Positions 1 to 57,495 of a stretch of 64,000 nucleotides of DNA are shown one piece after another (the stretch's first letter is position 1; the number at the start of each line of letters is the position of its first letter). Source of the DNA: Hyphomicrobium sp. CS1GBMeth3 (lineage in GTDB: Bacteria > Pseudomonadota > Alphaproteobacteria > Rhizobiales > Hyphomicrobiaceae). The stretch is from positions 744,001 through 808,000 of the forward strand of contig NZ_FPHO01000002.1 of NCBI RefSeq assembly GCF_900117455.1, read 5' to 3'. The notes beneath the pieces are model-generated. The model did not search any database and was not told the DNA's origin. It worked only from the letters and a program-made list of their open reading frames with translations. Both the position numbers and the translations under genes were made by a program.

Positions 1-281
1 CCTGGCGAGGCGGTGCGTTCCATCAGCTCAAGCAAACGCTCTTCGTCGGGATGCACGCCGGGCCGCAGCCATAGCGCCGCTCCCACGTATCCGTACGAAC
101 AGAAGGCACCGCCGTGCGCGAAAGCCGCGCCGCCAAACGCGCGGACGACCTTCGGCATAACCGTTATGTATTGGTGTGCCTCCGGCCAGACCCACCGCGT
201 CATTGGATCCCCACCAAAAGCAAGGATCACCGTAGCGATTACTTGATTTTCATCGTCCGGACTCGTGGTTCGCACCTTCAC
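1..281 (-). CDS. GNAT family N-acetyltransferase, C-terminus cut by window edge
   Basis: Reverse-strand translation runs unbroken to the left edge and matches the N-terminal part of a GNAT subfamily: an ILAFGGDPMTRWVWPE segment, then VVRAFGG, FAHGGAFCS and a GAALWLRPGVHPDEE stretch. These are the first strands and helices of the acetyl-CoA-dependent fold; the acetyl-CoA loop would lie outside the window. A GTG at 281 is preceded by GGAGG at a good distance. An in-frame ATG at 293 without a ribosome site is the alternative start. The substrate cannot be told. The frame is convincing; the family call rests on remembered conserved segments. Confidence 0.72.
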   Translation of the reverse strand, partial: MKVRTTSPDDENQVIATVILAFGGDPMTRWVWPEAHQYITVMPKVVRAFGGAAFAHGGAFCSYGYVGAALWLRPGVHPDEERLLELMERTASP

Positions 282-511
282 GCTATCCTCCATGATGCTG
301 GGCGCCCGAGTTCGTGGGCCATGTGGGAGTTTCACGAAGTTCGACGAAATAGCGCCTGACGGTGGCTTCGGGCCACTAGCGACCTAATCGGTCTTTTCTG
401 CCAGTGCGCCGCACAAAGGCGCACCGTCCCAGAAGCGGCCATCGCCGCGTTCGAAGTCGGCGCCCCCCGTGCGCACGCCGACTAAGTCTACTGATAGGTG
501 CAATGCAGCCA

Positions 512-1150
512 TCAGATGTCGATCTTCTCCGCGATCTCGATCGCATCGTCGACCTCGATACCGAGGTAACGCACCGTGCTCTCGATCTTTGAATGTCCGA
601 GCAGAAGCTGGACAGCTCTGAGGTTGCCGGTCCTCCGATAGATTAGCACTGCCTTTGTGCGTCGCAGCGAATGCGTGCCGAATTTCGCCGGATCAAGGCC
701 TATACTGGCAACCCACTCGTGGACGAGCCGGGCATACTGTCTCGTAGTCAGTCCGTGGAAGCCTCCGCCGCGACCAGCAAACAAGAATTGCCCGGATTTG
801 CGCCCGGTCATCCTTAGATAATCGTCGATGGCCAAGCGAGTTTGGTCCGTCAGCTCGAACCGCACGGGCCGGCCCGTCTTCTTCTGCCGGATTGTCGCTC
901 GATCCATCGCATAGCCGCTCGGCGCAACATCATCAACGCGGAGCGCGACAACGTCACAGCCTCGGAGCTTGCTGTCGATGGCCAAATTAAAAAGTGCTAG
1001 GTCCCGCTTCCGATCTGCCATCTGAAGCTTCGTTCTTATCGACCAAACGTGGCTTGGCCGCAGTGGCGGCTTTGCCCCGATAAGCTTTCCCTTGTTCCAA
1101 GGCTCGTTGCGGACAGGCTTCAGATTTTTAGTTTCGTGATTGTTGTCCAT
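512..1150 (-). CDS. Short tyrosine recombinase/integrase
   Basis: A 212-residue tyrosine-type site-specific recombinase made almost only of the catalytic domain. The expected active-site set is visible: R63 (KLRGCD), K91 (QKKTGRP), H160 and R163 (THSLRR), H186 (LLGHSKIES) and the nucleophile Y195 (VRYLG). There is no full N-terminal SAM-like core-binding domain; only about 40 residues precede the catalytic part, whereas phage integrases are usually 330-400 residues. Such short forms are common in Hyphomicrobiales accessory DNA. It stands at the edge of a region of small unknown genes, which fits a mobile or formerly mobile island. No att site or tRNA target was seen. Confidence 0.85.
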   Translation of the reverse strand: MDNNHETKNLKPVRNEPWNKGKLIGAKPPLRPSHVWSIRTKLQMADRKRDLALFNLAIDSKLRGCDVVALRVDDVAPSGYAMDRATIRQKKTGRPVRFELTDQTRLAIDDYLRMTGRKSGQFLFAGRGGGFHGLTTRQYARLVHEWVASIGLDPAKFGTHSLRRTKAVLIYRRTGNLRAVQLLLGHSKIESTVRYLGIEVDDAIEIAEKIDI

Positions 1151-1685
1151 GGTCTGTCTCCTTATTTGAGAGACAGATCAGCATGCGCCTGTACGAGCCG
1201 AGGAGCGAATGTCCCGACCGGATTCGGGCTCAAAATCTTCCGAAGCTGCTCAACCGGGGTTGTTTGTCGTTCGATGCATTGAGCGCGCCATGCTTGGCGG
1301 CATTGATGGCAGGCTCATGAAGGACAAGACTGAGGTTGCTCGTAGCGCTGGCCGCCGGCAGGACAGGCAGCCCCGTAAGGACCGTGCCGCGAAAAGGTCG
1401 GAGTACTGTCTTAAGAACCGTTCGCAATGGCACAGGCTCTTGATCATTCTCAGCATTATGGTCCTGGGCGAGCGTGTGTGCATCCGGCCGAGCGACGCGA
1501 CGACGTAGAATATTGTCGTCCGTCGTTTCTGGCTGATGTCGATAGTCCTAAAGACGGCGAAATCCACTGCGCAACCGTAGGGGTGGACTTTTGCGCCCCG
1601 GCACCCCATATCAGGCCTATCGCTGGCACGAATAGGCTCCAGCGGCTGAGAGATGCGAGTGCTCCCGCCAGATTGGAGCACAGTC
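1151..1685. other. Intergenic stretch without a supported gene
   Basis: Open frames exist on both strands (for example 1209-1508 plus and 1250-1780 minus), but their translations are Arg/Ser-rich, lack ribosome sites and resemble no family. I see no RNA gene or repeat here. The part near 1151-1200 must hold the integrase promoter. Confidence 0.4.
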
Positions 1686-2105
1686 ATGCCCTTTCCGCAG
1701 GATCCTCCCGGTTTTAGTCGCGACGCGGCCCGGCTCCTCGACATTGCAATGACGAGGGCGTGGATGGAACGCGTAGCCATTGGTGCGTCTCAAAGCGGCG
1801 CCGACGCGAATCTTTGCGCAACGTTATGGGGCAAAGTGGACCGCCTTGAGCGACTCCAGTCTGGCGAGCGCGGCGGCAAAAGAAAGGATCCAGCGAAACA
1901 GATGGCAGCGCATAGGTTCAAAGTCGGCCAGAGCGTGATCTTTCATTCTCCTCAGAGATCCGTTGGTCCATCCGTAGTCACCATCCTGCGTCTGCTACCA
2001 ATCGAGGGGCAAGATCTCACCTACAGGATCAAATCGACCGACGAGGGTTTTGAACGCGTGGCCAAGGAACGTGAACTTGCGAGCCTTCAGGAGGGAAATG
2101 CCTGA
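1686..2105 (+). CDS. Conserved hypothetical protein with small beta-barrel-like C-terminus
   Basis: A 139-residue protein. The start at 1686 is chosen because GGAG lies 8 bases upstream; an in-frame ATG at 1653 lacks this. The first 75 residues are helical and charged. The last 60 begin with FKVGQSVIF and contain YRIKSTDEGFERV, a pattern of short hypothetical proteins in Hyphomicrobiales that resembles a small SH3-like barrel. It is the first of a tight run of four small genes, and its TGA overlaps the next ATG by one base, so translation is probably coupled. The function is unknown. Confidence 0.6.
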   Translation: MPFPQDPPGFSRDAARLLDIAMTRAWMERVAIGASQSGADANLCATLWGKVDRLERLQSGERGGKRKDPAKQMAAHRFKVGQSVIFHSPQRSVGPSVVTILRLLPIEGQDLTYRIKSTDEGFERVAKERELASLQEGNA

Positions 2106-2377
2106 TGATCGAGGCATTCGACTACAGTGCTCCAGCAGAGTTGTTCCCGTCGAAGGGCAAGGGCTTTCGGCGTAAAATGGTTTCATATCGTCGCTTTGAG
2201 TCTGCGGCCGTCGCCATCCGCTATGCCATCGAGGAACTGGAACCCGACAAACTAGTCGGCGCCGTTCTCGAGATAGATGAGGATCGCTATGACGACGTCG
2301 CGATCCGCAATCTCTACGCGAGCGACGGGTACCCGCTGCCACGGCTCAACACCAATCAAGAAGGGAGCTTCGTGTGA
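2105..2377 (+). CDS. Conserved hypothetical protein, small
   Basis: A 90-residue acidic soluble protein. Segments such as VSYRRFESAAVAIRYAIEEL and LEIDEDRYDDVAIRNLY look like a family of small uncharacterised proteins seen in Bradyrhizobium and Methylobacterium relatives. Its start codon overlaps the stop of the preceding gene (TGATG) and its own stop overlaps the next start (GTGA), so it sits inside a translationally coupled unit. No catalytic or metal-binding motif is visible and no function can be given. Confidence 0.65.
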   Translation: MIEAFDYSAPAELFPSKGKGFRRKMVSYRRFESAAVAIRYAIEELEPDKLVGAVLEIDEDRYDDVAIRNLYASDGYPLPRLNTNQEGSFV

Positions 2378-2592
2378 AACGCGATTTCCAGGTCTTTCAA
2401 GGCGCCAATGATAATTGGGTCGTGTTGAGCCAGATAGGTATTCCCTTACTTGCTTCGCGACGCCAAGGTGTAGCCGAAGCCTTTGGCAAAGCTCTGGCAC
2501 ATCGTGCGAGCGTCGCGTTGATCGTTCACCATCACGGCGAGCCAAGCGCGCACTACTCCGGGCGCGACCTCACCTACGCGAACAGGCTCTAA
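2374..2592 (+). CDS. DUF2188-like small protein
   Basis: A 72-residue protein starting with GTG in a four-base overlap with the upstream gene. It begins DFQVFQGANDNWVV and has an alanine-rich helix followed by ALIVHHHGEPSAHYSG. That layout (strand, helix, then a hydrophobic strand with a turn) resembles DUF2188 proteins, but the conserved HxxDGxI core is only loosely present. It is part of the coupled run from 1686 to about 2592. The role is unknown. Confidence 0.55.
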   Translation: MKRDFQVFQGANDNWVVLSQIGIPLLASRRQGVAEAFGKALAHRASVALIVHHHGEPSAHYSGRDLTYANRL

Positions 2593-2606
2593 GACGGGAG
2601 CCGAGA

Positions 2607-2906
2607 TTGTTCAGACTGGCTGCTGGCTGGAACCCTATTGACCCACAATCCTCTTGCCTGGCGAGAGACGTCTATTTGGATGACACACTCGTGGGCCGCA
2701 TCGTCGACACGACGGCAGATGTCTATCTAACCAGTCCTTCCAACATTCGCATTTTCGAAGCAGATCTACTGCACAATGAGGTCTGGGAAACGGGTGACGA
2801 ACGGTTTACGGACGAGCGCAGTGCGTTGCGATCGCTCGAAAAGCGTCTGAGCGCGTCGCGGAGGGCTAGCGCAGCGCGCGGCGCCCACGATCCGCTGCCC
2901 AAATAA
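2607..2906 (+). CDS. Hypothetical protein, TTG start proposed
   Basis: The open frame reaches back to 2415, but that part overlaps the upstream gene out of frame. A TTG at 2607 with GGGAG six bases upstream gives a 99-residue product and is preferred. The protein has a beta-rich middle (DVYLDDTLVGRIVDTTADVYL) and a basic alanine/arginine C-terminus. No family was recognised. It lies 14 bases after the preceding stop and probably belongs to the same transcript. Confidence 0.45.
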   Translation: MFRLAAGWNPIDPQSSCLARDVYLDDTLVGRIVDTTADVYLTSPSNIRIFEADLLHNEVWETGDERFTDERSALRSLEKRLSASRRASAARGAHDPLPK

Positions 2907-2958
2907 CCCTTATCCGCCTGCGCGCAGAGAGTATCTTGACCACCAATTAGGAAGAGTC

Positions 2959-3171
2959 ATGCAACTTGGAACCGTAAAGTTCTATAATTCTGAAAGAGGC
3001 TTTGGTTTCATTCAGCCAGATGATGGCGGAAAGGACGTGTTCATCCACGCGACAGCCCTCGAGCGATCCGGTGCGCACATCCTCCTCAGTGAGGGGCAAA
3101 AGGTGACCTTCGATATCCAGGAGGATCGCCGGTCCGGAAGAATTTCTGTCTCGAACATTCGCACCGACTGA
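2959..3171 (+). CDS. Cold-shock protein, CspA family
   Basis: A 70-residue single cold-shock domain of the usual length. The RNP1-type segment (RGFGFIQPDDGG) and the RNP2-type segment (DVFIHATALERSG) that bind single-stranded RNA and DNA are both intact. The spacing GGAAGAGTC before the ATG gives a reasonable ribosome site. Such proteins act in the cytoplasm as RNA chaperones. A second, divergent copy on the other strand at 3849-4058 is about 60 percent alike, so these are paralogues and not a recent duplication. Confidence 0.93.
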   Translation: MQLGTVKFYNSERGFGFIQPDDGGKDVFIHATALERSGAHILLSEGQKVTFDIQEDRRSGRISVSNIRTD

Positions 3172-3306
3172 TTGCGCGCTCACGTGCCGGCAGCACTTCG
3201 CGGCATCGCCTGTCGCTGGAGTAGACGACGTCAGTCTCGGGTACGTCACGTACGTTAGAGTTCTTCGGCGTACCGGAAATGGTTCGATGCGCCCAGGAGC
3301 ATACTC

Positions 3307-3435
3307 GTGGCACCCGATCCCCGGCCGAACGATACGAGCGATTTTGCGGCGACCTCAGCGCTGATCCTGTTCGTCGCATTCGTCGCCTTAGTCCTTGCTG
3401 CCGGATACATTGGGCACATCATGGCAGGTCAATAA
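3307..3435 (+). CDS. Small single-pass membrane protein, 42 residues
   Basis: A short frame starting GTG at 3307 with AGGAG about seven bases upstream. A polar N-terminus (PDPRPNDTSDF) is followed by one hydrophobic helix, ALILFVAFVALVLAAGYIG, and a short tail. The clean ribosome site, the one-helix design and a similar small protein at 4850-4987 support it as real. The function is unknown. Confidence 0.45.
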   Translation: MAPDPRPNDTSDFAATSALILFVAFVALVLAAGYIGHIMAGQ

Positions 3436-3461
3436 CCAGCATCCGACGTTGACCATGGGCG

Positions 3462-3815
3462 TCAGTGGCTAGTCTGTTCACTAGTTCCGACAGGTCGGAG
3501 TTGTCCGGCAACGACTTGCGCCTGCCATTCGGGATCGAGAGCGATACCAAGAATCGTCCGGCACTGTTCGCACAGGAATTGGATGGCAGGCACGGTCCGC
3601 TTCGATCCCTCATCGCGTGCACGAAAATACTCGATGAGAACATGGGACTCCGCATTGCATTTTGGGCACTTCCCGCTCACGGCATTCTCCTGCTTCGCGT
3701 GATATTGGATGCGTTCGACGTATGATAATCCTCCAATGGGGAAGGTTAGACTCGTACGTTGGGACCCAACTTGCCGGCGCTCATGACCTATCGGGCAAGA
3801 TCCAAGCGCCGGCAT
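3462..3815 (-). CDS. Zinc-ribbon-like hypothetical protein
   Basis: The reliable part is the last 80 or so residues, which carry two CxxC pairs, CPKC and CEQC, about 35 residues apart, as in a small zinc-binding fold. The start is uncertain. The ATG at 3815 has no ribosome site, while a strong GGAGG near 3732 is followed by codons Tyr-Val-Glu-Arg but no ATG, GTG or TTG, so the native start may have mutated or be non-canonical. It lies convergent to the small membrane gene and beside a cold-shock gene on the same strand. A nucleic-acid-binding or structural role is possible; none can be shown. Confidence 0.55.
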   Translation of the reverse strand: MPALGSCPIGHERRQVGSQRTSLTFPIGGLSYVERIQYHAKQENAVSGKCPKCNAESHVLIEYFRARDEGSKRTVPAIQFLCEQCRTILGIALDPEWQAQVVAGQLRPVGTSEQTSH

Positions 3816-3848
3816 TTACGGTAAAGTGCCTGACGTGCGTGACTGCGT

Positions 3849-4058
3849 TCAGCTTACTTGAATATTTACGACGGCAGTCTTACCGGAACGCCGATCCTGT
3901 TCGGTATCGAAAGAGACCTTCTGTCCTTCCGTCAGGCTCGTCAGCCCGGCACGTTCGAGTGCACTCGCGTGGACAAACACATCGCTTCCTCCGTTGTCTG
4001 GCGCGATGAATCCGTAGCCTTTTTGTCCATTATAAAATTTGACTGTTCCCGTGTTCAT
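3849..4058 (-). CDS. Cold-shock protein, CspA family (second copy)
   Basis: A 69-residue cold-shock domain beginning [14 protein letters not shown]. The RNP1-like [10 protein letters not shown] and RNP2-like [13 protein letters not shown] are intact. The start at 4058 is chosen over the longer frame because the family starts there and TTGGAG lies just upstream. The region upstream contains a perfect small hairpin (4150-4166), which could belong to a 5' leader, as cold-shock messages often have structured leaders. Confidence 0.93.
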
Positions 4059-4410
4059 GATCACTCCAATCATTGATGCTAACGAGCCGGCGCACGCCGT
4101 GAGGTGCACGCCAGCTCTACGTTTCGATTTTTGGGGTATATGAACATACGCTCAGCGGCGCTGAGCACAGCGGCCCGTATTCCGGCCAAACTCGATGTGT
4201 TAAAGTAAGAGCAGCCCCCATTCATTGCAAGGGTTCATCCTCATCTGAGTAGTTTCCGAGGGTGCCTCGGCGGTCCATAGCCCGCTACCGTTCCGCAATC
4301 CACCATCGCAGGCATCGGCCATCGTCTCCCACTCTCCCGCACGTAGGAGCGGGCTCAAGCTCACAGCTTCCGGAGAAGCCCGCGCATTTGGGACGTAGGA
4401 GGAAATCAGA
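4059..4410. other. Intergenic region upstream of the minus-strand csp gene
   Basis: It contains a perfect 6-bp-stem hairpin at 4150-4166 (GCTCAG, CGGCG, CTGAGC) and is presumably the leader and promoter of the cold-shock gene. The frames across it look like noise. No other element was recognised. Confidence 0.35.
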
Positions 4411-4647
4411 ATGTCCATGCGGACACCGGAACAGATTGCCCAACGAATAATGGAACTGCTTGATCAAAGGCACACCAAGCCCGGCGAGCACGATATGTTT
4501 GGTGCCATAGCGGCGCGGCTCGCCAATGAGGAGATCATGGGGACCGAATTGAATGATGGCGTAGAATTTGGAGTGGCGAACGGCTGGTTCAGTTTGAGAG
4601 GTCCCCGAATTTGGCGGAGGTCCGCAAACTCGGGGCAGAAGACATGA
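4411..4647 (+). CDS. Hypothetical protein
   Basis: A 78-residue protein with a strong ribosome site (AGGAGG) before the ATG at 4411; a second Met two codons later is also possible. The first 60 residues form an amphipathic, acidic, probably helical domain (PEQIAQRIMELLDQRH, then FGAIAARLANEEIMG); the tail is basic. It stands alone between two untranslated stretches. No family was recognised. Confidence 0.6.
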   Translation: MSMRTPEQIAQRIMELLDQRHTKPGEHDMFGAIAARLANEEIMGTELNDGVEFGVANGWFSLRGPRIWRRSANSGQKT

Positions 4648-4849
4648 TTGCCCCACGGTGACGTTCCGCCCCGCAAGCCGTTGATGCCCCAGCATCTGTC
4701 CTTGTGTTCTGAGTAGATTCCGACACTAACGGGCAATGCCCTTCCATCCTATTGTCGGGTCTGACACGTGCGTCCGGATTTGAGCATGCATGGGCACTGT
4801 CGCCGTTCACAATGCGAGATTGAGTGCCAGAAACAAGGATTTTTCCCTT

Positions 4850-4987
4850 ATGAATGATCCGACTCCTCCCTTCGTTGCCGAGAAGACCGGCTGGCGGACG
4901 CTTGCGCCGTGGATTCCGTCATTGCTCGTTCCAATCGTGCTTGCACTGGTGCTCGTAGCATACGTGGTGTTCCAGGCCGCCAACTAG
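4850..4987 (+). CDS. Small single-pass membrane protein, 45 residues
   Basis: The start at 4850 is preferred to 4790 because the upstream part reads as non-coding and AAGGA lies about 11 bases before this ATG. The product has a proline-rich cytoplasmic start (NDPTPPFVAEKTGW) and one long hydrophobic helix, IPSLLVPIVLALVLVAYVV. Its design matches the 42-residue protein at 3307-3435. It ends 26 bases before the DUF1488 gene and could share its transcript. The function is unknown. Confidence 0.5.
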   Translation: MNDPTPPFVAEKTGWRTLAPWIPSLLVPIVLALVLVAYVVFQAAN

Positions 4988-5013
4988 AGCAAGGAGGAAG
5001 GTGACGTCACACA

Positions 5014-5277
5014 ATGACGCTGAGTTTTCCCAATCGGAGCCGCAGCTACGACGCACGCGGACGCCGCGTGCGCTTTTGGGGTTATGATGGTGCGCTCGAG
5101 ATCAGCTTCTTCCTTGATCAGCGCGCCTTCTCCCGCATGAGCCCAAATCCGAAGATGGACGAGACGGGAATTCTCATTGCGTTCGACCGCCATCGAGATC
5201 AAATCCTCGACGTCGCGTCGAAACTATATTCCGGGCGCCGCAGAGACGCCTACACACTGCAGGCATCAGACTTCTGA
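5014..5277 (+). CDS. DUF1488 family protein
   Basis: An 87-residue protein. The opening TLSFPNRSRSYD and the core VRFWGYDGALEISFFL, followed by LIAFDRHRDQILDVASKLY and a closing segment ending ASDF, match the DUF1488 family over its whole length. Family members are small soluble proteins of unknown function found widely in alphaproteobacteria. It converges on the large histidine kinase, whose stop is 14 bases away on the other strand. Confidence 0.85.
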   Translation: MTLSFPNRSRSYDARGRRVRFWGYDGALEISFFLDQRAFSRMSPNPKMDETGILIAFDRHRDQILDVASKLYSGRRRDAYTLQASDF

Positions 5278-5291
5278 TCGTGCGGGGCCGC

Positions 5292-7940
5292 TCAAGCCGC
5301 CGCGATCGCGATTCGGATCAAGGCGGGAAGCGACTTGGAGCCGGTCTTCCTCATAATGGCCGCCCGATGATTGTCCACGGTGCGTTGACTGATGCCAAGG
5401 TCGGCGGCAATGTTCTTGCTCGGATGTCCGGCCATGACGAGGTCCATGATCTGGCGTTGGCGTGCCGTCAGGCCTGCGACGAGAGAGATAGCCTGCTCTC
5501 GCGCCGCAGAGGGTCTGCCTCCATCGAGCTCGAATGCGCGCGCAATGCTCGCAAGCAGCTCCACGTGACCGACCGGCTTTTGAATAAAGTCGGAGGCACC
5601 CGCTTTCATCGCCTCGACGGCTAGAGCAATGTCTCCGTCGCCAGTTATCATGACTGTGGGCAGTGTACAGTTCTCCGCTCTGAGGCGCTCGATCAATTCG
5701 AGACCGGTCATGCCGGGCAATCGGGCGTCGATCAGCAGACAGCCATCGGATCGCTCGGCGTGCAGGAACTCCTCGCCATTTGTAAAGATTTCTACTGCAT
5801 AGCCATGCTCGTGGAGCAGATCCCGCATTGCCCTGAGGACAACGGCGTCATCGTCAACAACGAACACCCTCTGTACCGCGGAAGGATCCGCGGATGATGG
5901 CACGTCGGTCGCGGCGTCGGGTCTATTTTTCGTCGCCTTGACCAGAAGGTGCTGGATTAGGCTTATGAGCTGCTGCGATTTGACCGGCTTATTGAGCTGA
6001 ATGTGCCCCTGATCAGCAACAGCGCGCAACGTGATGGTCGCGATGTCACCCGTCAGGACGATGGCGGGGATGTCTCGGCCGAGCTGCTGTCGCAGGCCCG
6101 CGATGGCTTCGAGGCCGCTCGCCCCGCAAGACAGGTTATAGTCCGCGATCACGAGATCCAGTTCCGTAGCGTCTTTTCCCGCGATATCAAGTGCTGTAGC
6201 GACATCGCCTGCCACCGTCGCTCGATGTCCCTCCTGATCGAGAAGCATCTTGATCATATTCCGGACGATTGGATCGTCGTCGATGATCAGGATTGTGCCG
6301 ACAACGGGGACCGAGTTCTCCTGGACTGCGCGTATGGGCCGTGTCTCACCGCCTTCGCCCGCGTCACCGATCCGTACCTCTACCGCAAATGCCGACCCGT
6401 AGCCGGGGATCGAGCGGACATCGATCGAATGGCCGAGCAGATCTCCTATCCGCTTGACGATTGAAAGGCCGAGCCCAAGACCCAGACTGCTGTCGCGAGC
6501 TGGATTTGCGAGCTGGTGGAACTCATCGAATATTTTCCGAGCCTGCTCCATGGGTAGGCCGATGCCCGTGTCGAGCACCTCGATACGAATGATCCCCTCT
6601 CGCCGCCGACATCCCAGAAGCAGCTTGCCCTTGCTCGTGTATTTGACGGCATTCGAGATCAAATTGTGAAGCATTTGCCCAAGGAGCTTGGGATCACTTC
6701 GTGCAACGAGGCTGCAAGGGACCACGTGCCACTGCAGTCCCTTTTCCTCGGCAAGGTAGGCGAAATCGGCTTTCAGCCTTGCAAGCAGGCTGCTGATGGG
6801 GAAATTGACGATATTGGGCTGCACAACGCCGGCTTCGAGCTGGTTTATGTCGAGCAACTTGTCGAGCATGCTCGACATGGCACCAACCGTGTCGTCTAAG
6901 CGCTCGAGCAACTGAAGCGTATGTTCGTCGCGCGCACGTTTTTTCAATATCCCTTGCAGCAGATTGATAGTCTGTAAGGGCTGGCGCAGATCGTGACTGG
7001 CAGCGGCCAGGAACCGCGATTTGCCGATATTGGCATTCTCGGCAAGCGCCTTTGCGGCTGCCAGCGCCTTGCTCTCGCGCTTCGCGTCTGTGACGTCGAC
7101 GATCGACAGAAGCACGTTCAGATTTCCCAAGGGGCTGTCTCCGATGGCACGGGCGCTCACCATGAAGGACCGGACGCCGCACGTCGGCAATGTTAGCGTG
7201 ATTTCCGTATCAGCCACTCCTGCGCCGCTCGAAAGAAGCGCGGCAAGATACTTTTGCATCTCCGGCACATCGAGATGGGAGCCAAAGTCTAGGAGGTGGC
7301 GACCGACGATGGTTGCCGGTTCGATTTCGAATACCCGGTAGAAGGATGTCGAGGCAGAAACGACGCGAAGCTCTGTATCCAAGACGACGAGAGGTTGTTC
7401 GATCGTAGCAATGATACCTTCGGAATACGCGCGCGCGGATTGACTCTCTCTTTGGACTACCTTGACTTCGGAGATGTCTACAAAGGTGATGAGCACTCCA
7501 TCGACATGCTTCTCATCGCTGCGATAGGGCCGGACTCCGCAGATATAACAAGTCCCGTCATCGGTTTCGACTTCGCGCCGAATAGGAGCAACCGTATCGA
7601 AGACGGCATGCACGTCGCTCAGAATGTCGTCGGCCCTGAAGCGATGCGTGAGCTCGCCGAGCGGGCGCCCGATGTCGCTCGCCGTGACGTCGAACAGCGG
7701 CGTGATCGCCGGTGTGAAGAAGCGGATCCTCAAAGCCCGGTCGAGCACAACGATGGGCAGGTCGGAGCTGTTGAGGATGTTGTTGAGGTCGTCGGACGCC
7801 ACGCGCAAATGCTTCGCCCCCTCCGGAAGCTGACTGTTCGACACGGTGAGCTTCTCGCTGATGGTTTCGCGTTTCGGCGCGCACTCCCCGGACGGCAGCT
7901 TTCGGGATGCCTTCGGCGCACCAGGACGAGGCCCGGTCAT
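5292..7940 (-). CDS. Hybrid histidine kinase with two receiver domains and a FixJ-type DNA-binding domain
   Basis: An 882-residue signalling protein. Approximate order: a PAS domain (50-158) of the type found behind CheB-CheR modules, a second PAS (170-288), HisKA with the phospho-acceptor H316 in ASHDLRQPLQ, an HATPase domain (about 415-525; N-box at 426-430, DTGIGLP at 457, GLGLGL at 487), receiver 1 with D600, receiver 2 with D738, and a LuxR/FixJ helix-turn-helix (820-880, ending KTGSKSLPALIRIA). The protein can therefore sense, autophosphorylate, pass phosphate on and bind DNA in one chain. No transmembrane helix is visible, so it should be cytoplasmic. The first 45 residues resemble the linker that joins CheR to PAS in CheB-CheR-PAS-kinase fusions, but both chemotaxis domains are absent. 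No partner regulator lies nearby. The ligand and targets are unknown. Confidence 0.9.
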   Translation of the reverse strand: MTGPRPGAPKASRKLPSGECAPKRETISEKLTVSNSQLPEGAKHLRVASDDLNNILNSSDLPIVVLDRALRIRFFTPAITPLFDVTASDIGRPLGELTHRFRADDILSDVHAVFDTVAPIRREVETDDGTCYICGVRPYRSDEKHVDGVLITFVDISEVKVVQRESQSARAYSEGIIATIEQPLVVLDTELRVVSASTSFYRVFEIEPATIVGRHLLDFGSHLDVPEMQKYLAALLSSGAGVADTEITLTLPTCGVRSFMVSARAIGDSPLGNLNVLLSIVDVTDAKRESKALAAAKALAENANIGKSRFLAAASHDLRQPLQTINLLQGILKKRARDEHTLQLLERLDDTVGAMSSMLDKLLDINQLEAGVVQPNIVNFPISSLLARLKADFAYLAEEKGLQWHVVPCSLVARSDPKLLGQMLHNLISNAVKYTSKGKLLLGCRRREGIIRIEVLDTGIGLPMEQARKIFDEFHQLANPARDSSLGLGLGLSIVKRIGDLLGHSIDVRSIPGYGSAFAVEVRIGDAGEGGETRPIRAVQENSVPVVGTILIIDDDPIVRNMIKMLLDQEGHRATVAGDVATALDIAGKDATELDLVIADYNLSCGASGLEAIAGLRQQLGRDIPAIVLTGDIATITLRAVADQGHIQLNKPVKSQQLISLIQHLLVKATKNRPDAATDVPSSADPSAVQRVFVVDDDAVVLRAMRDLLHEHGYAVEIFTNGEEFLHAERSDGCLLIDARLPGMTGLELIERLRAENCTLPTVMITGDGDIALAVEAMKAGASDFIQKPVGHVELLASIARAFELDGGRPSAAREQAISLVAGLTARQRQIMDLVMAGHPSKNIAADLGISQRTVDNHRAAIMRKTGSKSLPALIRIAIAAA

Positions 7941-8177
7941 GATCCTGCTTTCTGTGCGCGCTCGCCCACAATGGGTAATGCAAGCGAATACATCCTAGCA
8001 CGTATTGTCCCGCCGCGGCCTGCGTTGACTCTGACAATGGGAACGCGTCGCAAAGCGTGATCAGATCGACGCGTACCTCCTCCAAGTGGCGGCGCCATAG
8101 GTACATTCCGAGTCTAAGCTTTGCCCGAACAGAGGAGCACTGTCGGCATGAACTGAACCATCAAACCGGTGACATTC

Positions 8178-8357
8178 ATGATCGACGACCAAACAAAAGC
8201 CTCTGACACTCCAATTGCCGCGGCACCCGATACCCCGACCGAGCCGTCTAAGACACCGACCGGAAGTCCGCCGACCGTCGGCGAGCCAGAAACGGTTGCC
8301 AATCCCGCCGTCAAGTCGGAGCAAAAGCCAGCGCCGCCCGCGCCGCAGAAGATCTAG
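8178..8357 (+). CDS. Short proline-rich hypothetical protein
   Basis: A 59-residue frame, low in complexity: alternating Pro, Thr, Glu and Ala with no hydrophobic core, so probably disordered. GGTGA lies just before the ATG at 8178; an in-frame GTG at 8169 is the other possible start. A strong hairpin follows at 8401-8427, in agreement with a transcribed small gene. No homologue was recognised, and the composition alone cannot exclude a chance frame. Confidence 0.35.
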   Translation: MIDDQTKASDTPIAAAPDTPTEPSKTPTGSPPTVGEPETVANPAVKSEQKPAPPAPQKI

Positions 8358-8400
8358 GTCAGCGCGCGACCGACGTCTCAAAACGGCTAGTCGCAGCGCC

Positions 8401-8427
8401 GAGCCAGTGCACCATGTGCACTGGCTC
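8401..8427. terminator. Perfect 11-bp stem hairpin, terminator-like
   Basis: GAGCCAGTGCA, loop CCATG, TGCACTGGCTC. The stem is perfect and lies between two plus-strand genes. The following bases are GCTCTTCGTTCGTT, a weak T-rich tail. It could end the transcript from 8178 or protect its 3' end. Confidence 0.55.
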
Positions 8428-8459
8428 GCTCTTCGTTCGTTCGGCAACGGAGCGCTCGT

Positions 8460-8666
8460 ATGAAAGCAGCCATATTGCCCTTTACGCTGGCGGCGATGGT
8501 GCTGGCCTCACCCGTTTGCGGACAGCAGCCGGCCCCCAAGCCTGAGATGCCCCCTTGGAACGGAGCCGTCTTCGCCAATACTGTGACTAGCGTGGCGATG
8601 CGCGCCCATGCCTGGCTCGTTCACAACTACATCCTTAGCCGTTCTTTGGAAAAGTGGAGACGATGA
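8460..8666 (+). CDS. Small secreted hypothetical protein
   Basis: A 68-residue frame with a good Sec signal peptide (KAAILPFTLAAMVLASPVCG then QQPAP), probably cut after residue 20-21. The mature part is short and ends in basic residues. Its TGA overlaps the next ATG by four bases (ATGA at 8663-8666), which supports both genes being translated together. No family was recognised. Confidence 0.45.
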   Translation: MKAAILPFTLAAMVLASPVCGQQPAPKPEMPPWNGAVFANTVTSVAMRAHAWLVHNYILSRSLEKWRR

Positions 8667-8959
8667 CGACGCGCACCACCCGATCGACTGCAGTGTTCAA
8701 TAGCGCCTTTACTCTCGGTGGCATCGACGGTGAGTTGCCCGCCGGCAGCTATCGAATCGAGTCCGAGGAAGAGCTGATTGAAGGTTTGTCCTTCGTGGCC
8801 TTTCGCCGAGTGGAAACCACCATCGAGCTTCCCGCAATCGGCTCTGTCAGTCACAAGAGACAGGTCGTCGCCATCGATCCACTCGATCTTGCCATGGCCC
8901 AGGAGCGTGATACCGCTCGTCCTCAAACGGCGCTACAGGTCGGCACGATACGACGCTAA
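8663..8959 (+). CDS. Conserved hypothetical protein, small
   Basis: A 98-residue protein; the start at 8663 is chosen for the ATGA overlap with the upstream gene (an in-frame GTG at 8654 is the alternative). The core FTLGGIDGELPAGSYRIESE, then EELIEGLSFVAFRRVETTI, matches a family of roughly 80-100-residue proteins repeatedly seen in Bradyrhizobium-like genomes, which have a beta-strand PAGxYxVE(T)DEE signature. The function is unknown. Confidence 0.65.
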   Translation: MTTRTTRSTAVFNSAFTLGGIDGELPAGSYRIESEEELIEGLSFVAFRRVETTIELPAIGSVSHKRQVVAIDPLDLAMAQERDTARPQTALQVGTIRR

Positions 8960-8980
8960 CACAAAAGAGTACCGGCCCGG

Positions 8981-9277
8981 CTAAGTGCGGAGCGCTCCAC
9001 CCTCATTCTCCCAACGATCGATGCTGGTGATATAGGACTTCCGACCAAGTCGCTCGACCTCGCTGTGCGCGTCTATCAACTGATCGCGCAGTCGTCGCAG
9101 ACGCACAACCAGTCCATCGCGTCCCGCAACTCCCGCGATCTCGATCGCCCGCGCCATGGAAAAGTTTGCATCCTCGTAGCAGTAAAGCGCGATCTGCCCA
9201 CTCGTTTTCCTCATGTCGGCGTAGGATCCGCCTGTCTCTTGAAAGAGACGATGTCGCGAGCGTTGTTCATCATGCAC
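8981..9277 (-). CDS. Conserved hypothetical protein, possibly frameshifted at the N-terminus
   Basis: The region from MRKTSGQIALYCYEDANFSM onward looks like a genuine helical protein (about 78 residues). Upstream the reading is unclear: a GTG at 9277 opens this frame, but the better-placed start is ATG at 9273 (GGAG eight bases upstream), whose frame reads MMNNARDIVSFKRQADP and stops at 9211. Removing one base near 9218 would join the two into a natural N-terminus. Either the GTG is used or a one-base shift has split the gene. It lies downstream of the PqqA-like gene and the large palindrome on the same strand. Confidence 0.5.
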   Translation of the reverse strand: MHDEQRSRHRLFQETGGSYADMRKTSGQIALYCYEDANFSMARAIEIAGVAGRDGLVVRLRRLRDQLIDAHSEVERLGRKSYITSIDRWENEGGALRT

Positions 9278-9308
9278 GTTTCTCCAATCGCGCTTTCAGC
9301 GTCACAAC

Positions 9309-9344
9309 GTGCAGTCGGCGCCCGTGCACGGGCGCCGACTGCAC
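9309..9344. terminator. 36-bp perfect palindrome behind the PqqA-like gene
   Basis: GTGCAGTCGGCGCCCGTG is followed directly by its exact reverse complement, with no mismatch. It begins 29 bases after the stop of the minus-strand PqqA-like peptide gene. As RNA it would fold into a very stable GC-rich hairpin. There is no clear T-run on the minus strand, so it may stabilise the 3' end of an abundant short message rather than end transcription. Confidence 0.6.
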
Positions 9345-9373
9345 TGATCGTCGCTCTATGGTACGAGATCGTG

Positions 9374-9463
9374 TTAGATGAGGTCGATCTCGGCCGGCAG
9401 ATAGCTCGTAACCTCGAGACCAACGGCCTGCTCGCGCACCTGCGGTGCGTTCCAAGTCCTCAT
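9374..9463 (-). CDS. pqqA: PqqA-like peptide, PQQ precursor candidate
   Basis: A 29-residue frame with GGAG six bases before the ATG at 9463. It has the PqqA layout: a Trp and Pro near the N-terminus (TWNAP), a Gly, then GLEVTSYLPAEID. The glutamate (E17) and tyrosine (Y21) are four residues apart, as in the pair that the radical SAM enzyme PqqE crosslinks to make pyrroloquinoline quinone. The EVTSY core is the same as in Methylobacterium PqqA. PQQ is the cofactor of methanol dehydrogenases. No pqqB, C, D or E gene is near, so this would be an orphan copy. The length and motif are seen directly; the function is inferred. Confidence 0.78.
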   Translation of the reverse strand: MRTWNAPQVREQAVGLEVTSYLPAEIDLI

Positions 9464-9625
9464 GGCTGTCTCCATTAATTTGGACGGATGCCCATTGCAC
9501 CAGTCACTGCAGAGGAGATGGGTATCTCCCGCGCGAAGCGCCAATCACGTTCGCGTTTTTCTTTCAATCAGCACTGTTCGCCGTGCGTTTTGGGCGGCCT
9601 GAGTAGTATCCGAATCTGACGCCGC

Positions 9626-9964
9626 ATGCATGCTGGCGCTAAGTTGGTTTGTACCATCCGTGTTTGTCGTGACGCACATAACGAAAGGATTATTTCCCTG
9701 TTCACATCTCATCATAACAGTTTCGTTGCCGCACTCGCTTTCGCCGTCTGCGCAATAATCTTAGCTTCGGTTCCGGCAAGCGGTCAGGGAAAGGCATCTG
9801 CGCCGGCCGCGGTTGCGCAGGAGTCCACCCTCGGGCTCGGCAATTACAGTCGAGCGACAAAAGCGGAGAAATTGGCCTCCTGCATGGCTCTGTGGGACCC
9901 TACAACGCACATGACCAAGAAGCGGTGGAGGACAGTGTGCAAGCGCGTTCAAACCGACGACTGA
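9626..9964 (+). CDS. Small secreted protein with CxxxWDxxTxM motif
   Basis: A 112-residue frame. The N-terminal 30 residues before the hydrophobic stretch are suspect, since no ribosome site precedes 9626; the true start is unresolved. A signal-peptide-like segment (FVAALAFAVCAIILASVPASG) is followed by about 55 residues ending with CMALWDPTTHMTKKRWRTVC. The same pattern, Cys-x3-Trp-Asp-x2-Thr-x-Met-x-Lys-x2-aromatic-Arg-x2-Cys, recurs in the secreted protein at 62368-62688. The two cysteines probably pair in the periplasm. The function is unknown. Confidence 0.55.
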   Translation: MHAGAKLVCTIRVCRDAHNERIISLFTSHHNSFVAALAFAVCAIILASVPASGQGKASAPAAVAQESTLGLGNYSRATKAEKLASCMALWDPTTHMTKKRWRTVCKRVQTDD

Positions 9965-10022
9965 GCTGACGGGTGATAGCTTGTAAACGAACTTACGACG
10001 TGCGTATCAGGGGATCGAAGGG

Positions 10023-10244
10023 ATGAGGACGCTCTATAAAAAGGCGAAGCTCATCACAGAAGCTGAGGCCCGGTACATCATCGCTCACGGGACCGCTTCA
10101 CCCAGTGAATGGGTCGTCGTCCAGTATATGGACCAGTGGTTCGACATACGTGGCATGACAAAAGCAGAGATCACGGAGCATATCGAGTATCTGGATCGGA
10201 AATTGGCTGCCGACCTTGCGGCCGGCATCGAAAGCCCGCACTAA
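10023..10244 (+). CDS. Hypothetical protein
   Basis: A 73-residue protein starting at ATG 10023, with AGGGG about nine bases upstream. It is mostly helical with a central aromatic segment (SEWVVVQYMDQWFDIRGM). No signal peptide or known motif is visible. It precedes the GcrA-like gene by 44 bases and could share its transcript. No family was recognised. Confidence 0.55.
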   Translation: MRTLYKKAKLITEAEARYIIAHGTASPSEWVVVQYMDQWFDIRGMTKAEITEHIEYLDRKLAADLAAGIESPH

Positions 10245-10288
10245 GTGTTCATAAGTTCGTGCGGCATACTTCTCAGCGAGAGTCTTCC

Positions 10289-10540
10289 ATGTATCCAAAC
10301 AAGAAGTCGATCGACTCGACACCGCTACAAGATCCCGTCATTCCCGTTGGCCAGAGAAAAACGATGGAGGCGCTCATGGCGAACGACTGCCGTTGGCCGA
10401 TCGGAGATCCGCAAGTGTCCGGCTTCCACTTCTGCGGCAGCCGTAAGGTCGACGGGCATCCGTACTGCGATTTCCATCTTCGTCGTGCGTTCCAGCCGGT
10501 GAGGCCTCGCGCAGTGACCTATCCAAACCTCGTGTCGTAG
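10289..10540 (+). CDS. GcrA C-terminal-domain-like mini-protein
   Basis: An 83-residue protein whose second half, CRWPIGDPQVSGFHFCGS then GHPYCDFHLRRAFQP, matches the conserved C-terminal end of GcrA, the alphaproteobacterial cell-cycle regulator that binds RNA polymerase and methylated DNA. The Cys/Cys/Cys/His set probably binds a metal. The N-terminal helix-turn-helix of GcrA (which normally gives about 170 residues) is absent; only about 30 unrelated residues precede the domain. It may compete with or modulate full-length GcrA, or be a remnant. The start is at 10289; a Met at 10364 just before the domain is an alternative. Confidence 0.7.
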   Translation: MYPNKKSIDSTPLQDPVIPVGQRKTMEALMANDCRWPIGDPQVSGFHFCGSRKVDGHPYCDFHLRRAFQPVRPRAVTYPNLVS

Positions 10541-10590
10541 AGGCATACAGTCCTCTGTCTGGGGCGACATGCGCGAAATGCACGCGGACA

Positions 10591-10794
10591 ATGGAGCGAT
10601 CACGTCGAATGACTGAGTGTCTTGAGGTTGCCCATGAGCTCGATCGCTTAATCACATTAGGCCATCAGGATGCCAGCCTTTTGACAGCACTGCAGCGCAA
10701 GTTTCCTGGTTTGACGCAGGCCGACCTTGAGGCAGCTTTCCATAAGGTTATTGCCGACCGTGGGCTCAAACTCGATCCCGAAAAGCCCCTTTGA
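10591..10794 (+). CDS. Hypothetical protein
   Basis: A 67-residue frame, or 61 residues if the second Met at 10609 (GGAG 12 bases upstream) is used. The protein is helical, with LEVAHELDRLITLGHQD and FPGLTQADLEAAFHKVIADRG suggesting a small two- to three-helix bundle. No family was recognised. It is the last of the small-gene run before a 500-base gap. Confidence 0.45.
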   Translation: MERSRRMTECLEVAHELDRLITLGHQDASLLTALQRKFPGLTQADLEAAFHKVIADRGLKLDPEKPL

Positions 10795-11299
10795 GCGCTT
10801 CAAATCGAGCTGTTCACGTCCGGTGCCGAAGACGCTTGCCGATGGCGTTGGCCTGATACGCATTGCCGCCTTGATCACTAAGGCACACGTGGTGCGGCCA
10901 TTCACGGTACAGTGTCCCCAACACGCTCAAGTCTTTCCGGGTTTGGGCGGACGAGATCGCGAACCCCTGAGGCCAAATAGACATCTTGGACCGACGCGCC
11001 TTTAATTGGGAGCGTGCGGAGCCTTGTCTAGATGCTTGCTTTTTTTTGCGAGCACGCCGGATGATTGCCAATTGACGGCCTCCATTCTCTCGTGTGGCCA
11101 CTCCGTCAGCGAGCAATGTCTGCTGCTCGAGGCGCTACCGTCACGGCCGAAAGAGTCAGTCGGCACCTCGACGCCATCGGACCAATGTCCGCTTTCTCGG
11201 CATCGCGTCGATCTGATCTCCCTGAAGGTCGAGATGCTCGACGTCCGAGTTGGGTCATTATTGCAGACGCATGTCCCGACGCAGAGACGCCCATCGTTG
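10795..11299. other. Intergenic stretch without a supported gene
   Basis: A minus frame at 10814-11116 and overlapping plus frames have basic, unstructured translations and no ribosome sites. Nothing else was recognised: no tRNA, no repeat and no clear terminator for the radical SAM gene that ends at 11300. Confidence 0.35.
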
Positions 11300-12898
11300 C
11301 TACGCCGCGTCGCCCATCGTCACGATGGAGGGCGTACTGAATTGGCCTGAGTCAATTTCGTCAATGGCTGCCCGAATATCGCTGGCGACCTTCTGAGCGT
11401 AGGTTCCGAGATGAAGATAGATCGCCAGCAAGGCCACGACCTGGCGCACGGCTGCTGGGTTGATTTTGTAGCACCGCGCAAAGGTCGCGGTGAGCTGTTC
11501 CTTTAGATCCGGCCGGCAATTGATAACCCGCTCGACTGCCTCGATGTCCTTTCGCCTGCGCGGATCACCTACCGGAAATTGATGCGGGCTCCGCGCCCAG
11601 CTCAATCTGGCAACCATCGCTTCAACTCTGCCGAGATAGGCATCGGGCTCGTATATTCGCGTGACCACGCGGTGATAATCTTCAAGGATGCTCCGACGGT
11701 CGCGCGCGGTGATGAAGTTCAGGCCCCGGCTGCATTGATCGCCGGAATTCTCTGGATGGGTATCGAAGCCCTCGAAAAGGCGACGTTCGCCAGTCAGCCG
11801 ACGCGTGAGCTGGGTGTTGGGTAGCGCATAAAGCAGCCCAACCATGGCGACCGGTATGGCGGCTTTCTCGATCAGCTCGATCATCGGGTCCGCGACGGAT
11901 CCGGTTTCGCTGTCAAAGCCAAGAATGAATCCGGCCGTGACGAACATCCCGTAGTCGTAGAGGAGATGGATGTTCTCAACGAGGTTCCGCCGCGTGTTCT
12001 GCTTCTTTCGTATCGCGGCGAGCGTTACAGGATCCGGGCTCTCGATGCCGACGAACAAGGCAAAGAAGTTGCACGCCTTCATCGCCGACAGGAGGTCCTC
12101 ATGGTCTGCGATGTTGATGGACGCTTCGGTCGAGAACATGAAGGGAAAGCCATGCGCCTCCTGCCAGGCCTGGAGATGGGGCAGGAAGGCACGCACCGCT
12201 TTTTTGTTACCGATGAGATTATCGTCGACGAAGTCGACGTGACCACGGTAGCCGAGTTGGTAGAGAGCCTCGAGCTCCGCCAACATCTGCAGCGGCGTCT
12301 TCGTGCGCGGAACTCGACCGTAGAGCTCGATGATGTCGCAGAACTCGCAGGTAAACGGGCAGCCGCGGGAAAACTGCACGCCGACGTGAAGATAATCTTC
12401 GAACTTCAATAAATCGAACCGCGGCACAGGTGACATCGAGACGTCTGCCTTGAACTTCTGGGCAGAGAAATCTCCTCGCCGTTGGCCGTCATTCCACGCT
12501 TGGACGAACCTATCGATGATACCTTCGGCTTCACCCAGCACGCGAAAATCCGCTTCGGCGTAAACATGCGGACTGGATGTGGCGTCCGGTCCGCCGACCA
12601 CTGTTGGCTTCTCGAACGATTTTGCGAGCCTCAATATTTTCAACGTGTCCACTTGCTGGAACAGCATGCCGCCGGTCATTACAACGTCGGCCCATGCCAA
12701 ATCTTCGTCGGACAAAGCTTCCGTGTTTCGGTTGATCAAGCGGATGGCCCATTCTGCGGGCAGTAATGCAGCAAGTGTGATAAGCCCTAACGGTATCGTG
12801 GGATAGCGAGCGCCAAGCACCTCTGCCGTCACGGAATAATTCCAAAAGGATGCCTCTTCGAAGCGCGGATAGACCAGCAAGACATTGCATGGCTGCAT
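11300..12898 (-). CDS. B12-binding-domain radical SAM protein with DUF4070
   Basis: A 532-residue enzyme. A cobalamin-binding-type Rossmann domain fills about residues 5-150 (PLGLITLAALLP, VVGGPDATSSP, FRVLGEAEG). A radical SAM barrel follows with the [4Fe-4S]-binding CxxxCxxC as C180, C184 and C187 (RGCPFTCEFC), and a C-terminal DUF4070 region from about 370. The start at 12898 follows AAAGGAGG; a further upstream Met is not preferred. It belongs to the same broad class as the hopanoid methylase HpnP, but its conserved segments (LLYALPNTQLTRRL) match the uncharacterised DUF4070 group better. A cobalamin-dependent radical methylation or rearrangement is likely; the substrate is unknown. It stands alone on the minus strand. 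Confidence 0.88.
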   Translation of the reverse strand: MQPCNVLLVYPRFEEASFWNYSVTAEVLGARYPTIPLGLITLAALLPAEWAIRLINRNTEALSDEDLAWADVVMTGGMLFQQVDTLKILRLAKSFEKPTVVGGPDATSSPHVYAEADFRVLGEAEGIIDRFVQAWNDGQRRGDFSAQKFKADVSMSPVPRFDLLKFEDYLHVGVQFSRGCPFTCEFCDIIELYGRVPRTKTPLQMLAELEALYQLGYRGHVDFVDDNLIGNKKAVRAFLPHLQAWQEAHGFPFMFSTEASINIADHEDLLSAMKACNFFALFVGIESPDPVTLAAIRKKQNTRRNLVENIHLLYDYGMFVTAGFILGFDSETGSVADPMIELIEKAAIPVAMVGLLYALPNTQLTRRLTGERRLFEGFDTHPENSGDQCSRGLNFITARDRRSILEDYHRVVTRIYEPDAYLGRVEAMVARLSWARSPHQFPVGDPRRRKDIEAVERVINCRPDLKEQLTATFARCYKINPAAVRQVVALLAIYLHLGTYAQKVASDIRAAIDEIDSGQFSTPSIVTMGDAA

Positions 12899-13206
12899 GG
12901 GGGCCTCCTTTGACCGGCTAAGCTCCAACGTGCGAGGCGCGCTTTTGTTTGGAGCGCCATCGTCAGAACGATATCCGCCATGCAGCGATTATCTCGTGGC
13001 AAATCGTCAAACGTGTGGAGACCGTCGGAGGGACGAAACCGGCTTTGATCCGGAGATTCACAGCCATGCGTCTGCGGCTATCCGCATCGGCTCCATGTCG
13101 TCTTCAACCTCCCCACCATTCCGGTTCTGCTGCTCGTGAACGCCGCGTAATAGATATGGCCTGGGCTTCGCGATCCGGGCAATCGCGGGCTTGCGTTGTT
13201 TGGTCT
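12899..13206. other. Intergenic region between cytochrome b561 and radical SAM genes
   Basis: About 308 bases, which must contain the promoter of the radical SAM gene. A plus frame crosses it but has no ribosome site and runs antisense into the cytochrome gene. No RNA gene or repeat was seen. Confidence 0.35.
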
Positions 13207-55772: not shown

Positions 55773-56630
55773 TCAGTCTTCTTCAAGACCAAAGACGGCT
55801 CTTATGCTGAAAGCAAGACGCCTGGCAGCGGTCGGCGCCGAAGAACTCTCCACCAGCTGATATTCGAAATCAGGTAACGCTGGTAGGCCGAGAGGGCCCG
55901 ATACGATCTGAAGAGGCGATACCACACTACGGGCCGCCATCACTGAAACGCCTAGACCAGCTTCAGTCGCGGTTACTAGACCAGATACTCCGCTGCTGCT
56001 CAGCGCAAGGACCCAACTTCGCTCAGCGCGCTCGAGGGCGTCCAAGGCGAGCCTCCTCCATGAGCAAGTCGGCGGGAAGAGAACTAGCGGCAAGGGTTTT
56101 TCGGCTTCGAAGGTAAACTCTTGGCCGGAGACCCAGACACGCTTGTCTCGGCTTAGTACGGTGCCCAAGTTTTCCCCTACCTCAACATTTACGATCGCGA
56201 CATCTAAGGCGCCTGAGTCTACCAGCGCCCTGACTTCGGGTCCCAGACTGATAGTAACCTCGAGCGAGACAGCAGGATGCTGGCGACGAAATTGAGCGAG
56301 CAGCAACGCCAGTATCTTATTGTCAAAGTATTCAGGCGCGCCAAAGCGTACGGTTCCGGAAACATTGGCTGTCGAGAGAAGCCCCTCAGCTTCCCTGTGC
56401 AGGGAAAGAATTTTGCGAGCAAATCCGAGAAGGAGTTCGCCGTCGGCGGTGAGTTCAACCTTGCGTGACGGTCCGCGCTCAATGAGTTTTCGACCGACTT
56501 GGTCCTCCAAGCGCTTAATCTGAAGACTGATGGCAGGTTGTGTAAGGTTTACCAATGAAGCTGCGCGGGTGAAGCTGCTGGTTTCTGCCACAGCAACAAA
56601 GCTTCGTAGCTGGCTGGTGTCGAGGATCAA
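55773..56630 (-). CDS. LysR family transcriptional regulator
   Basis: A 285-residue LysR regulator. The winged helix-turn-helix fills residues 1-60 (LRSFVAVAETSSFTRAASLV, then QPAISLQIKRLEDQVG), followed by a linker helix and an effector-binding domain of the type 2 periplasmic-binding fold. The coinducer is unknown. It is the last gene of a three-gene minus-strand unit after DUF1326 and DUF2182 (73 bases after DUF2182), so it may regulate that unit. Base composition is lower in GC than uvrA or the helicase gene, in agreement with transfer. Confidence 0.9.
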   Translation of the reverse strand: MILDTSQLRSFVAVAETSSFTRAASLVNLTQPAISLQIKRLEDQVGRKLIERGPSRKVELTADGELLLGFARKILSLHREAEGLLSTANVSGTVRFGAPEYFDNKILALLLAQFRRQHPAVSLEVTISLGPEVRALVDSGALDVAIVNVEVGENLGTVLSRDKRVWVSGQEFTFEAEKPLPLVLFPPTCSWRRLALDALERAERSWVLALSSSGVSGLVTATEAGLGVSVMAARSVVSPLQIVSGPLGLPALPDFEYQLVESSSAPTAARRLAFSIRAVFGLEED

Positions 56631-56703
56631 TGAACTACCTCTGTTACTCGTGTCGACCCAGCTGGGGTGCCCTCGCGCTGAATGGTAACGTGGCCCATTC
56701 CGC

Positions 56704-57486: not shown

Positions 57487-57495
57487 CGCTGGCTC

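Follow-up and report, generated by a model that had tools for sequence, protein, structure and literature searches.

PQQ is the redox cofactor of methanol dehydrogenases, and PqqA is its peptide precursor. Methylovorus sp. MP688 reportedly carries multiple pqqA genes; Methylovorus and the Methylophilaceae are Betaproteobacteria, unlike Hyphomicrobium sp. CS1GBMeth3, the host of the stretch of 64,000 nucleotides analysed here (the window), and Methylobacterium extorquens belongs to a different family from this host. Five pqqA genes were reported for Hyphomicrobium denitrificans FJNU-6, two in operons and three separate, with high expression of pqqA1 and pqqA3 (PMC9851590). The pqqA of Methylosinus was missed by annotation, lies apart from pqqBCDE and is very highly expressed (PMC3615186), and the Methylophilaceae were found to carry 3 to 12 pqqA copies (PMC4109929). 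The orphan pqqA2 and pqqA3 of M. extorquens were related to the lanthanide source, in a direction that differs between the results and the discussion of the paper in the passages drawn on here (PMC11317620). An additional pqqA in Hyphomicrobium belongs to a pqqAED-puuD-serC-pyrD cluster of denitrifiers (PMC12423496), and related literature includes PMC6520949 and PMC13158751. Ge et al. (2015), cited in PMC11317620, reportedly found precursor availability to be rate-determining for PQQ.

The pqqA gene of the window belongs to a known kind, since solitary extra pqqA genes have been published for H. denitrificans (PMC9851590). Like pqqA3-5 of FJNU-6, whose expression varies by copy, it lies apart from pqqABCDE in a member of the same genus, a likeness of setting rather than of compared sequences or positions; the parts of that report drawn on here, however, mention no island or upstream box (PMC9851590). 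Methylovorus sp. MP688 and the Methylophilaceae, like the probably methylotrophic host, have several pqqA genes, as a rule beside one set only of the remaining pqq genes, and their pqqA copies reportedly differ in how they react to environmental conditions, the parallel being one of gene content and not of compared sequences (PMC4109929). The pqqA2 and pqqA3 of M. extorquens AM1 are likewise solitary and are separately regulated, but respond to the lanthanide source, and here too the likeness is one of arrangement, apart from any sequence comparison (PMC11317620). The pqqA of the pqqAED-puuD-serC-pyrD cluster has its own pqqE and pqqD, whereas that of the window is solitary (PMC12423496). What our work adds is a distinct class of the gene, an upstream box, a linked kinase and an accessory location: a precursor gene found in accessory DNA without its enzymes. 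Judged by titles, the beginnings of abstracts and selected passages, the literature covered, mostly full texts outside subscription journals, contains no description of a pqqA that lies in a genomic island or has a kinase linked to it.

The solitary pqqA occupies positions 9374 to 9463 on the minus strand (29 codons and a stop) and encodes MRTWNAPQVREQAVGLEVTSYLPAEIDLI. The original prediction, which proposed a 29-codon frame here with Glu and Tyr four residues apart, was right on both counts: the frame is on the minus strand, and the peptide of 29 amino acids holds Glu-x3-Tyr within E-V-T-S-Y. Its length and motif had also been said to fit PqqA, and the peptide indeed scores above the cut-offs of both families, with 29.8 bits against Pfam PqqA (PF08042; cut-off 21.1) and 24.5 bits against NCBIfam TIGR02107 (cut-off 20). 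A six-frame search of the host genome (G000; 4.03 Mb in three contigs) with PF08042 returned six PqqA genes, of which the window copy scores lowest (28.0 bits, E 1.9e-5); the same search gave no PqqA match in any of 14 control genomes. The other five peptides follow the pattern MK[IT]W[ITVM]KP[AS]VREQEVGLEVTSYLPAEIDII, from which the window copy departs in its first half (RTWNAPQVREQAV), reading WNAPQVREQAV against W.KP.VREQEV in all five, while the core GLEVTSYLPAEID is kept. The profile search and comparison of copies that had been proposed thus yielded six genes and, in the window peptide, a core identical to that of the copy linked to pqqBCDE.

Two PqqE genes exceed the family cut-off in this genome, at C2:1105860 and C2:435742, and a third radical SAM match in that search was weak and under the cut-off. 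PqqE was sought genome-wide; PqqB, PqqC and PqqD were identified only beside the first PqqE (C2:1105860, L063), which they adjoin with scores over the NCBIfam cut-offs and which has a pqqA just upstream. The genome therefore encodes the PqqB, C, D and E needed to use a PqqA peptide. The window pqqA is on the same contig, at C2:753401, separated from pqqABCDE by about 350 kb and from the second PqqE by 317 kb, so that the linkage to pqqBCDE that is usual in the PqqA family, though not defining, is absent. The statement that no pqqBCDE is within reach holds in this sense, both full PqqE genes being outside the window and PqqE alone having been sought over the whole genome. At least 12 matches to PQQ alcohol dehydrogenases, weak ones included, were found in the same genome.

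The diverged N-terminal half could be taken to mean that another maturase acts on the peptide and turns it into a different modified product, as the original prediction had offered as its second option. A radical SAM gene indeed lies 1.8 kb from pqqA (11300-12928), and no pqqA-like frame was found in the 19 kb around the second PqqE (C2:435742). However, the core GLEVTSYLPAEID is the same as that of the operon-linked copy, and the radical SAM neighbour is a DUF4070 protein (Pfam), has no SPASM match and stands beyond position 11203, where similarity to G007 and G004 ends. A Pfam scan of nine ORFs chosen between 4285 and 15320 revealed neither a SPASM maturase nor a PqqD-like protein. Besides the operon-borne and FEVTAYVY-linked enzymes, the related genomes G001, G004, G005 and G006 have a third full PqqE that seems to correspond to the second PqqE of the host; it is absent from G007, which bears a pqqA of the window class. 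We consider a different maturase very improbable, and this second option found no support. The second PqqE was itself considered as a partner of the window pqqA and was rejected, since the two are distributed differently across the genomes. As a separate observation, this second PqqE (G000:C2:435742-436800; L062, with L116-L118) has no recognisable pqqA in the stretch taken around it; proteins 84-91% identical to it are present in G004, G005 and G006, and in G022 (L120) and G023 (L121) a PqqE about 71-72% identical follows ORFs sized like pqqB, C and D.

In eight genomes of the genus, the host included, we counted 6, 8, 6, 5, 6, 7, 6 and 7 PqqA matches, 51 in total, and Glu-x3-Tyr is kept in every copy. 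We compared 44 stretches, 43 of them taken around pqqA genes and the last around the second PqqE, and put loci in one group when two or more neighbouring ORFs were common to them; for the short contigs L084, L086 and L088 and for the window, a single common ORF, the peptide type or a comparison of loci decided the placement. Four loci recur in all eight genomes: the pqqBCDE-linked one, one labelled 'cup' after a cupin neighbour recognised by eye, a KIW/KVW-type and a tandem pair, both members of which occur in seven genomes, while in G004 only one was seen, close to the end of a contig. Several pqqA loci that differ in their leaders are thus maintained in constant settings throughout the eight genomes. 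Three further classes are patchy: the window class in four of the eight genomes (G000, G001, G004, G007), the TAPEV class in three and the FEVTAYVY class in five. The FEVTAYVY class has a PqqE nearby and is probably the pqqAED cluster of the denitrifiers, an equation made by arrangement rather than by comparing the sequences of that paper (PMC12423496); no FEVTAYVY-type pqqA with a nearby PqqE was found in the host genome. The TAPEV class (MKIWTAPEVREQNVGLEVTSYLPADID[IL]I) has its own locus (L073, L074, L091). The tandem pair lies at G000:C3:1853366 and 1853957 in the host (L066); in the tandem loci L066, L072, L075, L079, L092, L098 and L102 the two PqqA peptides are identical or nearly so, about 590-740 bp apart, and in all seven GGGCTGGCGGCCCGCTG precedes the ribosome site of the 5' copy.

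When the four pqqA genes of the window class are aligned, the frame, the Glu and the Tyr are intact in all, and 22 of 87 coding columns vary, distributed over codon positions 1, 2 and 3 as 2/4/16. With four sequences, the resulting values (pS 0.40, pN 0.055, pN/pS 0.137) are rough. This is, as read from the alignment, the pattern of a translated, constrained gene under purifying selection, and it supports translation of the window pqqA. Together with the genome-wide E value, the empty control genomes and the intact frame, Glu and Tyr, the codon-position pattern makes a chance frame very unlikely. These results confirm, at the level of sequence, that 9374-9463 (minus strand) is a real, selected and extra pqqA gene.

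On the same strand, at 5292-7940, lies a gene for a hybrid histidine kinase of 882 amino acids with PAS, HisKA and HATPase domains, two receivers and a LuxR-type DNA-binding end. Orthologues of nearly full length accompany the class in the other three genomes (77% identity in G001, 93% in G004, 68% in G007); of the four genomes without the class, two had nothing that matched at E 1e-60, and the other two had matches of 33-35%. The kinase is a candidate, though a speculative one, for a regulator of the window pqqA, and the joint occurrence of the two genes may be plain linkage because they share the region. Downstream of pqqA, a small hypothetical ORF (8981-9277, minus strand), whose true start may make it shorter, matches nothing in Pfam or NCBIfam; it is beside pqqA in L069 and L105 too and is absent from L086 and L164. 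The nearby ORF 8654-8959 (plus strand), also hypothetical and without NCBIfam match, is 75% identical in G004, 77% in G001 (with one internal stop) and 93% in G007 at a region without pqqA. The divergent small ORF 9626-9964 (plus strand), with an N-terminus that resembles an export signal by eye, is 59% identical in G001, 62% in G004 and 89% in the same pqqA-less region of G007, and has no match in Pfam or NCBIfam. A role outside PQQ synthesis, for instance in lanthanide uptake, has been suggested for PqqA of M. extorquens: its two orphan copies, pqqA2 and pqqA3, vary according to which source of lanthanide is given, and an alternative function in uptake is brought up by the authors in the passages drawn on here (PMC11317620). 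No lanthanide-related gene was recognised among the scanned ORFs, however, and the window peptide retains the Glu and Tyr that PQQ synthesis requires, so that we give such a role almost no credence here.

The gene sits in an accessory region of low GC content, whose part within the window (1-11203) we delimited by GC bins and by the similarity of relatives. The GC content is 0.56-0.59 in the seven 2-kb bins of 744001-758000 (to about window position 14000) and 0.58-0.61 in the three bins to the left of the window, low GC beginning near C2:738000; bins beyond this stretch mostly range from 0.62 to 0.70. GC alone is weak evidence because values as low are met elsewhere, with 0.58 both at C2:714001 and at window 56001-60000. 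Similarity of the region to both G007 and G004 stops at 11203. Within it, at 512-1150 on the minus strand, is a short phage-type integrase gene reduced to the catalytic domain, whose DNA is 84.5% identical in G007, about 11.5 kb from the class pqqA of that genome. The left part of the low-GC region further holds a PP2C phosphatase and protein kinase protein beside an MFS transporter (L166:15547-17256, C2:739547-741256).

Among named relatives, the best matches in a contig search were L047, from a Hyphomicrobiales MAG, and L048, from Hyphomicrobium sp. LHD-15. The stretch L164 of G007 matches the region in pieces 80-94% identical, with a mean of 86.8%, against 74-79% between G000 and G007 at the four core pqqA loci, and L047 matches it with a mean of 87.7%. 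By its sequence, L047 probably comes from the same genome as G004, the kinase being carried from the same base in contig C411 of G004 and in L047. The contig L086 of G004 is 79% identical to the region, and G001 is 77% identical, inside the 74-80% range of its core loci; the pqqA locus L105 of G007 matches that of G001 over 8.0 kb at 78.5%. The loci of G001 and L105 therefore appear to be vertically inherited, and only the L164 and L047 stretches point to lateral transfer. The region may be mobile, judging from these traits. As no tRNA was found in the window or in the 60 kb to its left, we propose no attachment site, and none was found for the low-GC region; when 401 bases spanning the window pqqA were searched against plasmids, nothing matched.

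Gene order around the window class differs between relatives. G001 keeps the kinase, the ORFs and pqqA in the same order with more DNA between kinase and pqqA. In G004, pqqA and neighbours on either side are kept, the small ORF 8981-9277 is absent, and the kinase is on a separate contig, which ends just upstream of it. L164 matches the window to 8915 and resumes at 9599, so that about 683 bp comprising the small ORF, pqqA and the box are missing, and its kinase is incomplete, with matches to residues 447-882 only. G007 keeps the class pqqA about 15 kb away (G007:C1:1030513), together with the box, a weakly similar small ORF (41%) and a kinase of nearly full length (68%). The original prediction had looked to a similar peptide at the same place in relatives, and this held for G001 and G004, whereas in the closest G007 region it is deleted and the class kept about 15 kb off. 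G007 was accordingly rejected as a simple syntenic holder, since its most window-like region lacks pqqA and its class pqqA stands in a locus that matches that of G001. At 10914-10916 of the window, L086 and L164 have about 1.8 kb of extra DNA that the window lacks.

Such a loss raises the question of whether the window pqqA is a redundant passenger, an accessory-region paralogue that gives little or no PQQ and is heading to loss. The deletion of about 683 bp from the closest G007 region would fit, as would the restriction of the class to four of eight genomes, a weak ribosome site (-6.4 kcal/mol) and, in the parts of the report on FJNU-6 drawn on here, the far lower expression of pqqA copies other than pqqA1 and pqqA3 (PMC9851590). 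The purifying selection at the protein level, the conserved upstream box and the retention of the same class elsewhere in G007 speak against it, and we regard a passenger as unlikely.

The signals around the gene are mixed. A Shine-Dalgarno-like GGAGA (9469-9473, minus strand) stands just ahead of the ATG; the duplex energy of the site ATGGAGAC, -6.4 kcal/mol, compares with -8.6 to -11.8 kcal/mol in the other five copies, computed with an assumed anti-Shine-Dalgarno string. To call this a good ribosome site was thus generous, its pairing being the weakest of the six pqqA copies of the genome. Upstream, the alignment of the class members revealed a conserved box of 23 bp at a distance of 72 nt from the ATG (AAACGCGAACGTGATTGGCGCTT; 9536-9558, minus strand), conspicuous against diverged intergenic DNA and forming, by eye, an imperfect dyad. 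It has one match per genome in all four genomes with the class (three exact, one with one mismatch) and none in the four without it when three mismatches are allowed, and the reversed pattern, used as a control, gave no match in any of the eight. The box is a candidate operator or promoter element. In 9200-9720, a simple consensus scan found no sigma-70-like promoter and a terminator scan made no call, not even of a perfect 16-bp hairpin after pqqA (9309-9344, minus strand; fold z -5.4, no T run). This hairpin is a candidate transcript end and is only partly conserved in the aligned relatives. Folding of the 60-nt leaders of all 51 pqqA copies gave z values of only -0.65 to -2.8 for the window class, and a leader RNA structure was dropped as too weakly supported.

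On balance, we are fairly confident that the window holds a genuine extra pqqA that is separately transcribed, serves as a substrate of PqqD and PqqE and supplies extra precursor, probably under a condition of its own. The gene would be transcribed on its own, and the PqqD and PqqE encoded elsewhere in the genome would bind the peptide and cross-link Glu17 and Tyr21, as the known pathway and the identical core lead us to infer. Because one PqqA is spent per PQQ, an extra copy would add precursor without extra enzymes. Since the N-terminal half, the leader, the weaker ribosome site and the patchy low-GC location all differ from those of the other five copies, this precursor would probably be made under its own condition, with the kinase-LuxR protein of the region as a speculative controller. 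The weak ribosome site, the lack of a sigma-70-like promoter in the scan, the absence of the class from four of eight genomes and the loss in G007 count against this reading. In its favour stand the upstream box and the nearly full-length kinase orthologues of the genomes with the class, the 5-8 PqqA matches in every genome of the genus sample, the correlation with dehydrogenase numbers across the family and the precedents in H. denitrificans and Methylosinus. An extra precursor copy in a methylotroph, the first option of the original prediction, gains support from the family match, the five other pqqA genes, the pqqABCDE set, the dehydrogenases and the purifying selection; the role in dosage would follow from these, and the host is presumably methylotrophic, given its pqq and PQQ dehydrogenase genes and its Hyphomicrobium relative. 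With the window copy and its box, pqqA multiplicity becomes testable as separate regulation versus mere dosage. A bolder version, which we hold to be possible but rather doubtful, is a mobile booster of PQQ that consists of the precursor only: an accessory pqqA with its own operator and a kinase-LuxR switch, answering to a signal that the five core copies ignore. If so, the host would raise its PQQ supply without moving any PQQ enzyme.

Across the family, PqqA occurs in 78 of 103 genomes, and 65 of them encode two or more. The number of PqqA correlates with that of PQQ alcohol dehydrogenase matches (TIGR03075) with a Spearman coefficient of 0.71 over the 103 genomes when kinship is ignored, these dehydrogenase counts including weak matches and, in some genomes, at most 12 candidates scored. 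The coefficient is 0.73 for the 79 genomes at least 90% complete, chosen by completeness whatever their contamination, and 0.64 for the medians of their 23 genera. One exception to this trend is G020, with seven PqqA and three dehydrogenase matches. Clusters of three or four pqqA genes spanning about 1 kb were also seen in family members outside the genus (G020:C109, G029:C7, G116:C50, G118:C2 and G119:C12).
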